From Streptomyces sp. H39-S7 (GTDB lineage: Bacteria; Actinomycetota; Actinomycetes; Streptomycetales; Streptomycetaceae), in the NCBI RefSeq assembly GCF_027158205.1, contig NZ_JAPVLU010000009.1, positions 1 to 64,000 of the forward strand: a stretch of DNA of 64,000 nt. The letters are read 5' to 3'. The position numbers and the translations under genes are program-made. The notes under the pieces were generated by a model. The model made no database searches. It saw only the letters and a list, made by a program, of their open reading frames with translations, and was not told the origin of the DNA. The stretch's first letter is position 1; each line of letters opens with the position of its first letter. Of this stretch, positions 3,789 to 62,035 are shown in pieces.

Positions 3789-5708
3789 ATGGACGCGAAG
3801 ACTTTCGACTGGCGGGCCTTCCTCACTCGGTGGAGCGAGGAGTGGGCCGATGCCCAGGGCGACTTGGAGGACCTGAGCCCGGACGACGCCGAGGACCGGC
3901 AGCGCAGGTGGCTCGGCGTCGATCCTGCCGCCGAGGCGGACATCGCCACCATGAAAGCGCGGCTCGGGCTCGAAATGCCACCGTCCTACAAGGAGTTCCT
4001 GCGGGTCAGCAACGGTTGGCGGCACGCGGGCGGCTTCGTGTGGATGCTGGCCGGCACACGCGAGGCGCACTGGCATGAGGACGCGAGCGGCTTGGGCGAG
4101 GACTTCGACGAGTTCTGGGGCGAGGAGGACAATCCCCAGGAGGTCCGGGCGCAGGTCGGCCTGTGGTCGCGCGCGCTGCAACTGGATGTCGAGTCGGACG
4201 CCACCTACGTGCTGCTCGACCCGGAGGACGTGGGACCGGACGGCGAGTGGGCGGTGCGGGTCTGGGCGTCCTGGCGGGCCTCGGACCCTGAGCGCTACCC
4301 GTCGTTCGCGGCATTCATGGTCGCCATGCACCAGGAGTTCCACAGCCTCGAGGCCGGCCGGAACGAGCCGGAGGGCGCCCCCGCATTCGACAACGAAACC
4401 ACCCGCGCCCAGGACGCCGCCGTGCTCCGGGCTCGGACCGCAGCGTTGCGCGGCCGCCATGACGACGCGGTCCGACTGCTGTTGGAGGCCCAGCGGTACG
4501 GCCGGCCGCGTGCCACCGAGCTCCTGCACCAGCTCGCCCTGTTGGGCGGACCGCACGGGGAAGGTCAGCGGCAGCCGCATCCCGGCGATCCCCGCTTCCT
4601 CACCGAATTGTTGCCCCTGCACGCTTCGGACCTCCTCAACAGCGGCCGCCCGGCCGATGACTGGCCCTTCGCCGATCCCGACCACTTCCCTGACACCGCG
4701 CACGCCGCGGCGGTCACCCTCCGCGAAGTGAGCGAGGGGACGTACCGCTACCGACCCGGCGGCACGTTCGGCGAGGCGGTCGACCAGGCACGCGAGCTGG
4801 CCCGTTGGGGCAATACCGATGCCGCCTGGCGGACCTTGCGGGCCGCGATCCCCCAGTGGGAGCCGCTCGGCCCCGACCACATCGCCCCCGTGGGCCTGCT
4901 CGCCGACCCGGTGCTCGCTCCCGTGCTCACCAGCGAGCGACGCACGGAGTTGCTGGCCACCCCTCGTGGCGGCGAGGCAGGCCCCGCTCCGACCCCCACC
5001 GGCGACCAGGACCCGGGCGGGCTGTCCTGGCTCGCGCGCCCCGACGCACTGAGACCGGTTCGGTCATCGCCGTGCGACTTCCGGGTGGTCCTGGTCGAGG
5101 GCGTCGCTCCGGACGGCCTTCCTATCCGCCTCGGCTCGTCGCCCGATACAGCCCTCTCCCCACCGCTGCGGCGCTGGGAAGTCGACCGCCACCACCGCCC
5201 CGCACAGCGGAGTTTCTCCGGCTACGACGACAGAGCGCTGCTCAGCGTCGGCCGGGCGGGAGCGGGCTGGAGCTTCGGGTTCGAGGAGAACCCGTCCACC
5301 TCGTTCTCCACGGAGCGGTTCACCTCTCCCGCGCCGGCCGCCTCGGCCGCCGGCGGCCGGGCGATCGTGGTGTGGAGCGAGTGGCGCCGGCACACCCCGG
5401 TCTTCCACCTGTCGGTCGCCCAGGGCGGGACACTCCTGTACGCGTTCACGGTGCGGGACGGGGCGATCGAGGACACCACCGGCAACGTCCCCGCCGAACT
5501 CACCCCAACCGCTCTCGGATTCGAAACCCGGGACGCGGCCGCCCAGACGGCCGCGGCTGCCCGCGCCCTGGACGCCATCGCCGAGCTCTACGGCGTCACT
5601 CTGCCGCGCCTCGCCCTCACCGAGGGCCGGCTGCACTCCTTCGAAACCGTCTCCTGGATACGCCCGCCCGGCCCCGGGGATACCTACATGACGATCACCG
5701 TCGGCTGA
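3789..5708 (+). CDS. Large SUKH (SMI1/KNR4) protein with extra C-terminal domains
   Basis: A 639-residue protein. A SUKH domain covers about residues 35-190 (MPPSYKEFLRVSNGW is the diagnostic segment). A helical middle region follows (residues 200-400, with ARTAALRGRHDDAVRLLLEAQ resembling a tetratricopeptide-like helix pair). The C-terminal 200 residues contain WSFGFEENP and resemble DUF6461-type domains. SUKH domains are immunity proteins of polymorphic toxins and also general binding modules. The length is several times that of a simple SUKH immunity protein. No toxin gene is adjacent. AGGA at 3777-3780 favours ATG 3789 over an upstream GTG at 3759. Confidence 0.7.
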   Translation: MDAKTFDWRAFLTRWSEEWADAQGDLEDLSPDDAEDRQRRWLGVDPAAEADIATMKARLGLEMPPSYKEFLRVSNGWRHAGGFVWMLAGTREAHWHEDASGLGEDFDEFWGEEDNPQEVRAQVGLWSRALQLDVESDATYVLLDPEDVGPDGEWAVRVWASWRASDPERYPSFAAFMVAMHQEFHSLEAGRNEPEGAPAFDNETTRAQDAAVLRARTAALRGRHDDAVRLLLEAQRYGRPRATELLHQLALLGGPHGEGQRQPHPGDPRFLTELLPLHASDLLNSGRPADDWPFADPDHFPDTAHAAAVTLREVSEGTYRYRPGGTFGEAVDQARELARWGNTDAAWRTLRAAIPQWEPLGPDHIAPVGLLADPVLAPVLTSERRTELLATPRGGEAGPAPTPTGDQDPGGLSWLARPDALRPVRSSPCDFRVVLVEGVAPDGLPIRLGSSPDTALSPPLRRWEVDRHHRPAQRSFSGYDDRALLSVGRAGAGWSFGFEENPSTSFSTERFTSPAPAASAAGGRAIVVWSEWRRHTPVFHLSVAQGGTLLYAFTVRDGAIEDTTGNVPAELTPTALGFETRDAAAQTAAAARALDAIAELYGVTLPRLALTEGRLHSFETVSWIRPPGPGDTYMTITVG

Positions 5709-41507: not shown

Positions 41508-41834
41508 CTACTGCCCGGTCTCACCGTCGAGGGGCCGCAGGAAGCGGCGCTCGTACCGCTTGATGCAGCCTGTGGAGCGGGCCAGTTGCATCGTCTCCTG
41601 GCCTTCCGGGTCGGTCAGGCTGTCCTTGCGGTACTGCTCGTACTCCGCGAAACCGGGGAAGGAGAAGAGGGCGTACGCGATATCGCTGTCACCCTCGCTC
41701 GGCAGGAAGTAGCCGTGGTGCGTTCCGCCGAAGCGGTTGACGAGTCGGACCCAGCGGCGACCGTACTCCTCGAAGTCCGCGAGCTTGTCGGCGTCGATCT
41801 CGTACTTGAGATGAATAGTGATCACAAGCGACAT
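41508..41834 (-). CDS. NIPSNAP-family protein
   Basis: 108 residues from MSLVITIHLKYEID; upstream open frame is not protein-like. The alpha/beta-barrel dimer pattern (KYEIDADKLADFEEYGRRWVRLVNRFGGTHHGYFLPSEG, then SFPGFAEYEQYRKD) is typical of NIPSNAP. Small stand-alone members are often found beside oxidoreductases. It is between the quinone-oxidoreductase-like gene (64 bp upstream) and the isochorismatase-like gene (9 bp downstream). Confidence 0.75.
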   Translation of the reverse strand: MSLVITIHLKYEIDADKLADFEEYGRRWVRLVNRFGGTHHGYFLPSEGDSDIAYALFSFPGFAEYEQYRKDSLTDPEGQETMQLARSTGCIKRYERRFLRPLDGETGQ

Positions 41835-57934: not shown

Positions 57935-58254
57935 GTGCCCTAGAACCGGGCGCCAAGGCCACGTCGCGGTCGGGGACATCCGGCCGGACACCTGTCCACG
58001 GCCGAAGCGCGCAGCCCGCGAGCAGGGCCCGCTCACCCATTCGGCGTGCCGGCCGACGGCTTGCCCTCTCGTACCGCAGAAACGCGATGAACTGGGCGGA
58101 TACCGATAACCAGCAGGCACCACGCCGGTGGAACCGCCTCTTCACGGCCGGGCCGCGCTGCGGTCCGCGCAAGGCTGGGCTTGCGTTGTCACTGTGAGCC
58201 AGGGTTCCTCGCGGTGCGTGGTGCTGCGCCCGGTGCTTGCTGGAGGTTCATCAC
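57935..58254. other. 320-bp gap without a gene
   Basis: No supported protein on either strand. The last 60 bases must contain the promoter of the small surface protein; GGAGG at 58241-58245 is its ribosome binding site. Confidence 0.4.
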
Positions 58255-58692
58255 ATGCGCGCCATATCCACCCTGTGCGGTACCGCTGCCCTGGGCGCCG
58301 CTCTCGCCCTGACCGTGCCGGCGGCCCACGCTGCTGCCCCGCAGCCCACGACCACCGCGTGTGCGAGGGCCGTGGCGGACGCGCAGACGGCGGAAGCGGC
58401 GTACAGCGCAGCGGTCGAGGACTACAAGAAGACCATCGCGGTCGGTGGCCACCCCGGCACGGCGGAGCAGGACAACGTCACCAAGCTGGAGATCGAGGCC
58501 AACGCCGCCGCGTCCACCGCGGCGCGCGCGTGCCCGGACGCCAAGGTCCCCAGCGGCACCATGCACACCGGCGTCGGCTCCACCAGCGAGGGCACCAACA
58601 TCGGAGACCTCGCGGCGGGCGGCGCCCTGATCGGCGCGGTCGGCATCGGCGCGCTGATGCTGCGCCGCCGTCACAACGGCGACCAGATCTGA
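58255..58692 (+). CDS. Small secreted protein with C-terminal membrane anchor
   Basis: 145 residues from ATG 58255. A signal peptide (1-26, ending AHAAAP) is followed by a helical part with two Cys, a short linker and a C-terminal hydrophobic helix plus RRRHNGDQI tail. The layout is that of a sortase substrate, but no LPxTG or LAxTG motif is seen (TSEGTNIGD stands before the helix). A class F sortase gene follows after a strong hairpin. Confidence 0.65.
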   Translation: MRAISTLCGTAALGAALALTVPAAHAAAPQPTTTACARAVADAQTAEAAYSAAVEDYKKTIAVGGHPGTAEQDNVTKLEIEANAAASTAARACPDAKVPSGTMHTGVGSTSEGTNIGDLAAGGALIGAVGIGALMLRRRHNGDQI

Positions 58693-58721
58693 CCGGAAGG
58701 ACTCCGGCGGCCGCATGCCGA

Positions 58722-58759
58722 GTCCGCGTGCCCCGCCCACCAGGGCGGGGCACGCGGAC
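58722..58759. terminator. 17-bp perfect hairpin terminator
   Basis: Arms 58722-58738 and 58743-58759 with an ACCA loop, 30 bp after the stop of the small surface protein. It separates that gene from the sortase, so they have different transcripts or a strongly attenuated read-through. Confidence 0.7.
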
Positions 58760-58842
58760 ACGGCGCGGAGCCCGATCACAGGACGCGCACACGCCGCCGA
58801 CCGGTGTCCCACCGGGCGGCCGACACACCTTTTGGGGAACGA

Positions 58843-59583
58843 GTGGACCGACCCGCCCGCCTGCACTCGCGTTTCCGTTCGCAGTGGGCGCAGTGGGCAC
58901 TGCCGGCTCTTGTGATGGTGGCCCTGGGAATCGGACTGATCCACCACGGCCTGCAGAGTCCGACGCCACCGCCGCAGCCGACCGCGGCGCAGAGGTTTCC
59001 GGCCCACGCCAACCCGCCCCCACCCGTCCCGATCCCTCGCACCGCCCCGATCTCCCCCGCCATCCCGGTCTCCCCCACCGTCATGGCTCAGCCGATGCCG
59101 ACGCCAGCACCGGCACCGGCGAAACCGACGCGAGTACGGATCCCGTCGATCCGCGTCAACGCTCCCCTGACCGGGCTTTCCCTGACGAGCGACGGGAAGC
59201 TGGCCTCACCCCCCGAGACCGACCGCAACCTGGCCGGCTGGTACCAGGACGGCACCAGGCCGGGATCCGTCGGTACCGCCATCATCGGCGGCCACGTCGA
59301 CACCCACTCCGGCCGGGCGGTCTTCTACAACCTGGGCGCCCTCCGGAAGGGCAGCCTGATCGACATCGACCGCGCCGACGGCACCGTCGTGCGATTCACC
59401 ATCGACGCCGTCGAGGCCTACACCGACAAGCAGTTCCCCAATGACAAGGTGTACGGAGCGGCCCAACGCCCCGAGCTGCGCCTGATCACCTGCGGCGGGG
59501 GCTTCGACAAGCGCCGCCAGCGGTACCTGGGCAACGTCGTCGCCTTCGCCCACCTCACCGACACCCGGCGTGCCCTTCCCTGA
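58843..59583 (+). CDS. Class F sortase
   Basis: 246 residues from GTG 58843 with GGGGAA upstream. One N-terminal TM helix (16-36), a Pro-rich linker (40-95) and the sortase domain. Catalytic residues are His151 (IIGGHVDTHSG), Cys217 (LITCGGG) and Arg225 (FDKRRQRY). The TLTC motif is LITC here, usual for class F. It would anchor surface proteins to peptidoglycan; candidates are the protein at 58255 and the LAXTG protein at 61130. Confidence 0.85.
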   Translation: MDRPARLHSRFRSQWAQWALPALVMVALGIGLIHHGLQSPTPPPQPTAAQRFPAHANPPPPVPIPRTAPISPAIPVSPTVMAQPMPTPAPAPAKPTRVRIPSIRVNAPLTGLSLTSDGKLASPPETDRNLAGWYQDGTRPGSVGTAIIGGHVDTHSGRAVFYNLGALRKGSLIDIDRADGTVVRFTIDAVEAYTDKQFPNDKVYGAAQRPELRLITCGGGFDKRRQRYLGNVVAFAHLTDTRRALP

Positions 59584-60626: not shown

Positions 60627-61129
60627 GCTCCGACCGTCGCATCGACCTCCACATCCGACGTCGGCCACTTGAACGATCCGTGTCCCTCGCCCGGGTGAGC
60701 CGGCTGTACGACCTGCGTATGCGTCAGCGGCGGCCGCCTTCCCCGGCATGTCGCGAGGGGGCTCAATGCCCCGCGTGCACTGGACGGTGCCGTGGCGCGC
60801 GGATAACCCAGCGCGGCCGCGCGTTCGTTCGCGATGGACGCTTCCCCGTCGGTGATCACGATCCGGACCACGGGCAGCCCGTTCTACGCCCTTTACGCAA
60901 GAATGCCCCGCAGTTCTGCCGCATTTCATCGCATTGCCCGTTTGTTGAACAATTGACAAGGATGGTCACTGCCATGAAGATGCGTCGTGATCCCGGCTTC
61001 GGGGCTGCCGGGTGCTTCCCCCCTCCTCCCGGTATGGCCCATGCCCGCATTGACGTGCGGCGCACGGTGAATTGGTCTCGTGTGCGGCCGGGGTCTTCGT
61101 GTTGTTCGTTGAGGAAGGGGTGTTCGTCG
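60627..61129. other. 503-bp gap before the LAXTG protein gene
   Basis: No supported gene. TTGTTGAACAATTGACAAGG (60941-60960) is an AT-rich stretch with the palindrome TTGAACAATTGA-like arms and is the likely promoter area of the downstream surface protein. Confidence 0.4.
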
Positions 61130-62035
61130 ATGTCGCGACGCACCGCATCGCATCTGTTGGGTTCGACCGCCATCGCCGTGTCCGTGGCGGTCGCGGGAGC
61201 CGGCACGGCGTTGGCCGACGGCGGCGGCAAGGGTTACGGGAAGCACAATGTGGCCGGGTACACCAAGCCGGGGACGCTGCCCGGTCAGGTGAAGCCGGCC
61301 GACGCGCACTGCGCGTTCTCGCTGCACGGCGCGGCATGGACCGCCGCCCAGGGGCTGGCCGCCATCACCCCCACCGCCGACGGGAAGATCAGCCTGGACG
61401 TCATGGGCCGTGGCGGGGTCTGCACGGTGTCGCTGGCCTCCTACCAGGCTCACGGTCCGACCTTCGCGACGTCCGGCCTGCAGGTCCTGACCGGCTTCGC
61501 GACCGTCACCGTCCGCCAGGGTGCCACCAAGTCGCTGACGATCGCGGTGCCGGACGCCGGATGCTTCGCCCAGATCGACCTGTACTAGGGCAGCACCCGC
61601 TACGACGGAGCCACCGGGACCGGTCACGGTCCCGCGCCCGAGGGCCCGAACGGTGCCGTCATCGGGACGAAGCTGATCGCCGCGTGGAACGGCCCGGTCG
61701 GAGGCAAGGACTGCATCAACGCCTCCCCCACCCCGAGCCCGACCGTGACCACCCCCAGCGCGTCCCCCACCACTCCCGCCGCGCCCAGCACGGCTCCGGG
61801 CACGCCCGCTGTCCCGAGCACCGGGCCTGCCGTGCCGACGGGCACCCCGTCCACCAGCGGTGCCGCGGTACCGCCGGCCACAACTCCCGCGGCCACGCCG
61901 ACTGACGACACCCACTTGGCGACGACCGGCAGCAGCAACGTCGGCCCGCTGGTGGGAGCTGCCGGGGCCCTGTTCCTGGCCGGAGGTGGCGTTCTGTTCG
62001 CCGTGCGCCGCCGCAACGCTGCACGCCACGGCTAA
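61130..62035 (+). pseudogene. LAXTG-anchored surface protein gene interrupted by an amber codon
   Basis: ATG 61130 with GAGGAAGGGG upstream. A signal peptide (1-29, ending ALAD) is followed by a 120-residue domain with two Cys, up to DLY at codon 152. Then a TAG at 61586-61588. The same frame continues without another stop for 149 codons: GSTRYDGATGTGHGPAPEGP, IIAAWNG-like LIAAWNGPVGG, a Pro/Thr/Ser wall-spanning linker, a THLATTG sorting motif (LAXTG), a TM helix and a RRRNAARHG tail. Relatives usually have a sense codon here; CAG to TAG is one base change. Without read-through the product is secreted, not anchored. Confidence 0.75.

Follow-up and report, generated by a model that had tools for sequence, protein, structure and literature searches.

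An in-frame amber codon, probably a recent nonsense mutation, in a LAXTG surface-protein gene of Streptomyces

RESULTS

A TAG codon parts the signal peptide from the sorting signal within one reading frame

The window analyzed here, by which we mean the whole stretch of 64,000 nucleotides, covers positions 1 to 64,000 of contig NZ_JAPVLU010000009.1 from Streptomyces sp. H39-S7 (GCF_027158205.1). Its sequence and translation revealed a TAG codon at 61586-61588 that is in frame both with an ATG at 61130 and with the stop codon ending at 62035. The TAG is preceded by 152 codons and followed by 148 sense codons, or 149 counting the final stop, confirming the original prediction of an amber codon after which the same frame stays open for 149 codons. 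The gene is composed of the following elements.

61111 to 61120, plus strand: probable ribosome-binding purine stretch before the ATG at 61130, judged from the sequence
61130 to 61585, plus strand: first half of the gene, with a signal peptide, a glycine-rich stretch and most of a four-cysteine beta domain (sequence, translation, homology, predicted fold)
61586 to 61588, plus strand: the in-frame TAG, present in no relative examined (translation, alignment, family search)
61589 to 61723, plus strand: end of the domain past the stop, with the last predicted strand and the last cysteine (alignment, predicted structure)
61724 to 61912, plus strand: linker rich in Ser, Thr, Pro and Ala (translation)
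61913 to 62032, plus strand: sorting signal with an LATTG motif (61916-61930), hydrophobic helix and basic tail (NF041528 over its cut-off, PF00746 below its cut-off)
62033 to 62035, plus strand: natural stop codon TAA (sequence)

By eye, the signal peptide takes up approximately residues 1 to 29 of the first half. The second half had been predicted to hold a linker, an LATTG motif, a membrane helix and a basic tail, and all of these were found in the expected order: the tail includes RRR in translation, and the NCBIfam model strep_LAETG (NF041528) scored 30.9 and 32.2 bits in two runs against a cut-off of 30. At third codon positions, the G+C content is 0.91 ahead of the TAG and 0.86 past it. 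An open frame of 148 codons arose by chance in 18% of 5,000 first-order Markov simulations, which is too common in this G+C-rich composition for the frame to count as proof of a single gene. We regard the two halves as one gene because the relatives are homologous through the position of the stop, not because the frame is long. Under the standard code, the TAG at 61586 keeps the signal peptide and the sorting signal out of a common product; only readthrough, or an error in the sequence, would unite them.

The stop is found in a single genome

Relatives were collected with the first half of the gene, which was matched in 37 of 100 related genomes (the window's own genome counted in) and, in the GTDB contig collection, at 61 loci, 60 from Streptomyces and one from Actinobacteria bacterium OV320. 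The resulting 91 loci comprise the window itself, 89 aligned relatives and one locus (L020) that was left out since it gave no local tblastn match at 1e-3; its matched part contains no stop. None of the 89 aligned relatives has a stop at the TAG column, and all of them continue through the position. The residue at this column is variable in the relatives, arginine being the commonest (61/89). A CAG codon, which the original prediction expected in orthologues, occurs there in none of the 89. Nor does any of them end at this point, a case the prediction had likewise raised, and naturally short orthologues are ruled out among these relatives.

An L[A/P/S]xTG motif lies within the last 80 residues of 88 of the 89 relatives. 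The exception is L081 (Streptomyces sp. DHE7-1), in which LAETG, a helix and a basic tail are found, from position 5288, in a frame other than that of the domain. Either this relative has lost its anchor independently or its sequence contains an error, and L081 may represent a further case of anchor loss in the family.

For a wider view of the family, a profile (A1) of 45 sequences, namely the window and 44 of the 89 relatives, was searched against 394 family genomes, with the best nine first-look candidates scored per genome. This yielded 149 matches at an E value of 1e-20 in 134 genomes. The single internal stop among them is the window's own (0/148 in the others). The gene is without close kin in these collections: the best same-genus match to residues 1 to 152 has 54% identity, and the nearest relative is about 61% identical to the window in the domain. 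Across 44 aligned domain residues after the stop, nearest relative L002 is 75% identical to the window. No closer relative was found in 35 genomes of the genus, nine of which gave a match at 1e-20, the window's own included. One copy was detected in the window's own genome, and a second copy that might make the gene redundant was looked for and not found.

The second half bears no trace of decay

As expected of a pseudogene, the gene carries a disabling stop while its homologues are intact. Relaxed constraint after the stop, which would also mark a pseudogene, was not seen. A column was counted as conserved if at least 90% of the 89 relatives agree in it. Of the 20 such columns ahead of the stop (residues 56 to 152), 18 are retained in the window, and so are all 11 past the stop (residues 154 to 198). 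Dividing the mean distance past the stop by that ahead of it gives 0.92 for the window, which is the median value for the 90 sequences (rank 48 from the top). The second half shows no trace of decay; therefore, the stop is recent on this time scale, or it is a sequencing error, or the gene is rescued. With the nearest relative at about 61% identity, a mutation late on the branch would leave no trace, and constraint thus cannot tell a recent mutation apart from a base-call error or readthrough, both of which an intact second half also fits. For the same reason, and with none closer in the 35 genus genomes, the age of the stop is only coarsely datable.

The stop cuts a four-cysteine beta domain

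The upstream part was said to end in mid-domain, and the alignment and the predicted structure bear this out. Three cysteines precede the stop column and one follows it in 84 of the 89 relatives; in the remaining 5 the numbers are four and one. The third and fourth cysteines of the window occupy the same column in all 89 relatives, whereas the first and second are found in their own column in 71 and 73 of them and within six columns in 85 and 89, respectively. The domain was modeled with the stop read as one residue (mean pLDDT 80.5, pTM 0.76, residues 1 to 24 below 50). Strands were predicted at model residues 117-123 and 152-157, and the stop corresponds to residue 123, at the end of a strand, such that one predicted strand and the last cysteine come after the TAG.

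Searches with the model point to nothing beyond a generic beta sandwich. Foldseek returned no match at an E value of 0.001 or better, and the best VIA-align hit was human CD109, at Z 6.0 across 91 residues; GH3 and fibronectin type III domains scored almost as well. A profile search of the PDB gave one match, Adiponectin (E 0.019, 21 positions), which we took as chance. Models of the C-terminal sorting signal aside, the window's halves and four relatives gave no match above the cut-off of any Pfam or NCBIfam model for the domain. The four-cysteine beta domain (window 61220-61723) is present in 134 of the 394 family genomes at 1e-20, without a Pfam or NCBIfam match in the sequences tried.

The genome encodes class E sortases, and the gene looks accessory

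Class E sortases of Streptomyces coelicolor attach LAXTG proteins, according to the part of the source available (PMC5148588). The genome studied here contains 18 sortase-domain matches, four of which are class E sortases over the NF033747 cut-off. Three class E sortase genes lie close together at C58:298637-302439 of the same genome. A class F sortase gene is located about 1.5 kb upstream of the stop-bearing gene, at 58804-59580 (201 bits, cut-off 166); its product is not expected to be the enzyme for an LAXTG motif. Directly before it, within window 58237-59583, is a gene for a small protein with a GVDTG sorting-signal match (26.9 bits, just under the cut-off of 29), and the small protein and the class F sortase are likely an enzyme-substrate pair.

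Seven genes that neighbour the stop-bearing gene were searched by tblastn in 12 kb of sequence surrounding the relative in each of six genomes of the genus, and none gave a match at 1e-5. The gene's position is therefore not conserved, and from its sequence context the gene looks accessory. A plasmid origin was rejected: of the 93 plasmid records that match the final 24 kb of the window, none spans 80% of that segment, and the matches of the best 20 of the 93 lie outside this gene. A relative is encoded on one plasmid record, with 43% identity over 63% of the query.

Alternative explanations of the stop

If the TAG were a sequencing or assembly error, the strain itself would carry a sense codon and make a normal anchored protein. 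Apart from the stop, the gene looks intact with no sign of decay, the genome is a draft of 146 contigs, and the stop is present in this one record only, all of which would suit an error. The change is, however, a substitution and not a homopolymer indel, and no internal stop was seen in the genome's 18 sortase-model and 8 LAXTG sorting-signal-model matches, a small sample. A composition scan of the window gave 24 other candidate stops in coding-like frames, only one of which, at 41510 (minus strand), looked coding on both sides by eye; it is the boundary between two genes. The scan is a weak one, since by the same eye rule the gene's own proline-rich second half would not stand out. We infer that the stop is real, and we consider a base-call or assembly error unlikely.

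Readthrough at some rate would place a little full-length anchored protein beside the truncated one. Constraint past the stop equals that ahead of it, and Belinky et al. 2021 (PMC7918605), in the part of the paper available, describe bacterial genes that contain in-frame stops and have dN/dS below 1; they propose that readthrough is frequent. Against it, the stop is conserved in none of the 89 aligned relatives and in none of the 148 other family matches, and the 100 bases that follow it, the only length folded, form no unusual RNA structure (z-score 0.00, no better than shuffles). As for a suppressor tRNA, Rfam gave 82 tRNAs in the genome, and ARAGORN, run on the stretches covering them, gave 84 distinct tRNAs with 44 anticodons after merging by position. 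No CUA anticodon is among these 84 in the draft genome. Near-cognate decoding of a stop requires no CUA tRNA. Among papers retrieved on stop-codon readthrough, Streptomyces and amber codons, none dealt with readthrough in Streptomyces, to judge by titles and the opening lines of abstracts. Low-level readthrough of the TAG may occur; as an account of this locus it gains no positive support here and is distinctly improbable.

Seventeen of the tRNA genes form an array packed into about 1.8 kb of a single strand (C102:50300-52500, L122). Many of its anticodons also occur elsewhere in the genome, a pattern known from the tRNA arrays of mobile elements.

The truncated protein could also be useful as a secreted form, in which case the stop would have been favoured. 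Its signal peptide is intact. Stops in internalin A (InlA), an LPXTG protein, reportedly yield a truncated and secreted protein, to go by the title of a 2005 paper. Premature stops in InlA are frequent among Listeria isolates from processed foods, as stated in the available part of PMC5131979. What speaks against such a role here is that the stop falls within a folded domain, whose final predicted strand and cysteine are lost, and that none of the 89 relatives ends at this point. With the domain itself interrupted, a working secreted form is unlikely, and that the stop was favoured for this purpose seems very improbable.

Regulated low-rate decoding of the amber codon by a near-cognate tRNA, giving few anchored beside many truncated molecules, we hold to be improbable in the extreme; if true, it would allow an actinomycete to switch between a wall-bound form of the protein and a released one.

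DISCUSSION

Taken together, the above results point to a recent strain-level nonsense mutation in an accessory LAXTG wall-anchored surface-protein gene of a Streptomyces-kind actinomycete, and we regard this as the probable explanation of the stop. The original prediction offered a choice between a fresh nonsense mutation and an amber codon read through to give both forms. The former is borne out by a stop confined to one genome (1 of 149 matches), an undecayed second half and the lack of short forms among the 89 relatives, whereas the latter gained no positive support, with no CUA tRNA among the 84 examined, no notable RNA structure in the 100 bases after the stop and a stop that is not conserved.

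If the stop is a nonsense mutation, residue 152, within the folded domain, would be the last one translated. The truncated product would retain its signal peptide, and export would be possible, but neither the final predicted strand and cysteine of the domain nor the linker and sorting signal would be present. Because these elements are missing, it would not be attached by a class E sortase and would probably misfold and be degraded. Under its first alternative, the prediction further held that an anchored protein had been turned into a secreted one. Loss of the anchor agrees with our reading, while a working secreted form is doubtful with a cut that precedes the last predicted strand and the last cysteine; on the structural model, the truncated product is more likely misfolded.

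A recent loss-of-function mutation of such a kind is ordinary in bacteria. For the biology of the strain the finding would be one more strain-level broken allele of an accessory surface-protein gene, and it matters little; the beta domain itself is a better subject than the broken allele. For annotation it is a warning: a gene that encodes one anchored protein in the relatives may be called automatically as a short secreted protein, perhaps with a LAXTG fragment as a second entry.

The locus can be compared with three known systems. Like the cases of Belinky et al. 2021 (PMC7918605), it is a conserved gene with an in-frame stop and constraint on both sides; that study, in the part available, concentrated on stops present in orthologues from at least two species, as a guard against artefacts, whereas here the stop is in one genome. 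The InlA alleles of Listeria (PMC5131979, as far as the accessible part describes them) likewise carry, in certain strains of a species, a premature stop that precedes the wall-sorting signal, but the stop described here is inside a folded domain, and one genome is known to carry it. In layout the gene resembles the LAETG/LAXTG sortase-dependent proteins of Streptomyces (NF041528), with which it shares a signal peptide, a folded domain, a low-complexity linker, LATTG, a helix and a basic tail, in a genome that has class E sortases. Unlike those class E sortase substrates, it has an in-frame stop that parts most of the domain from the sorting signal, and under standard reading no anchored protein would be made.
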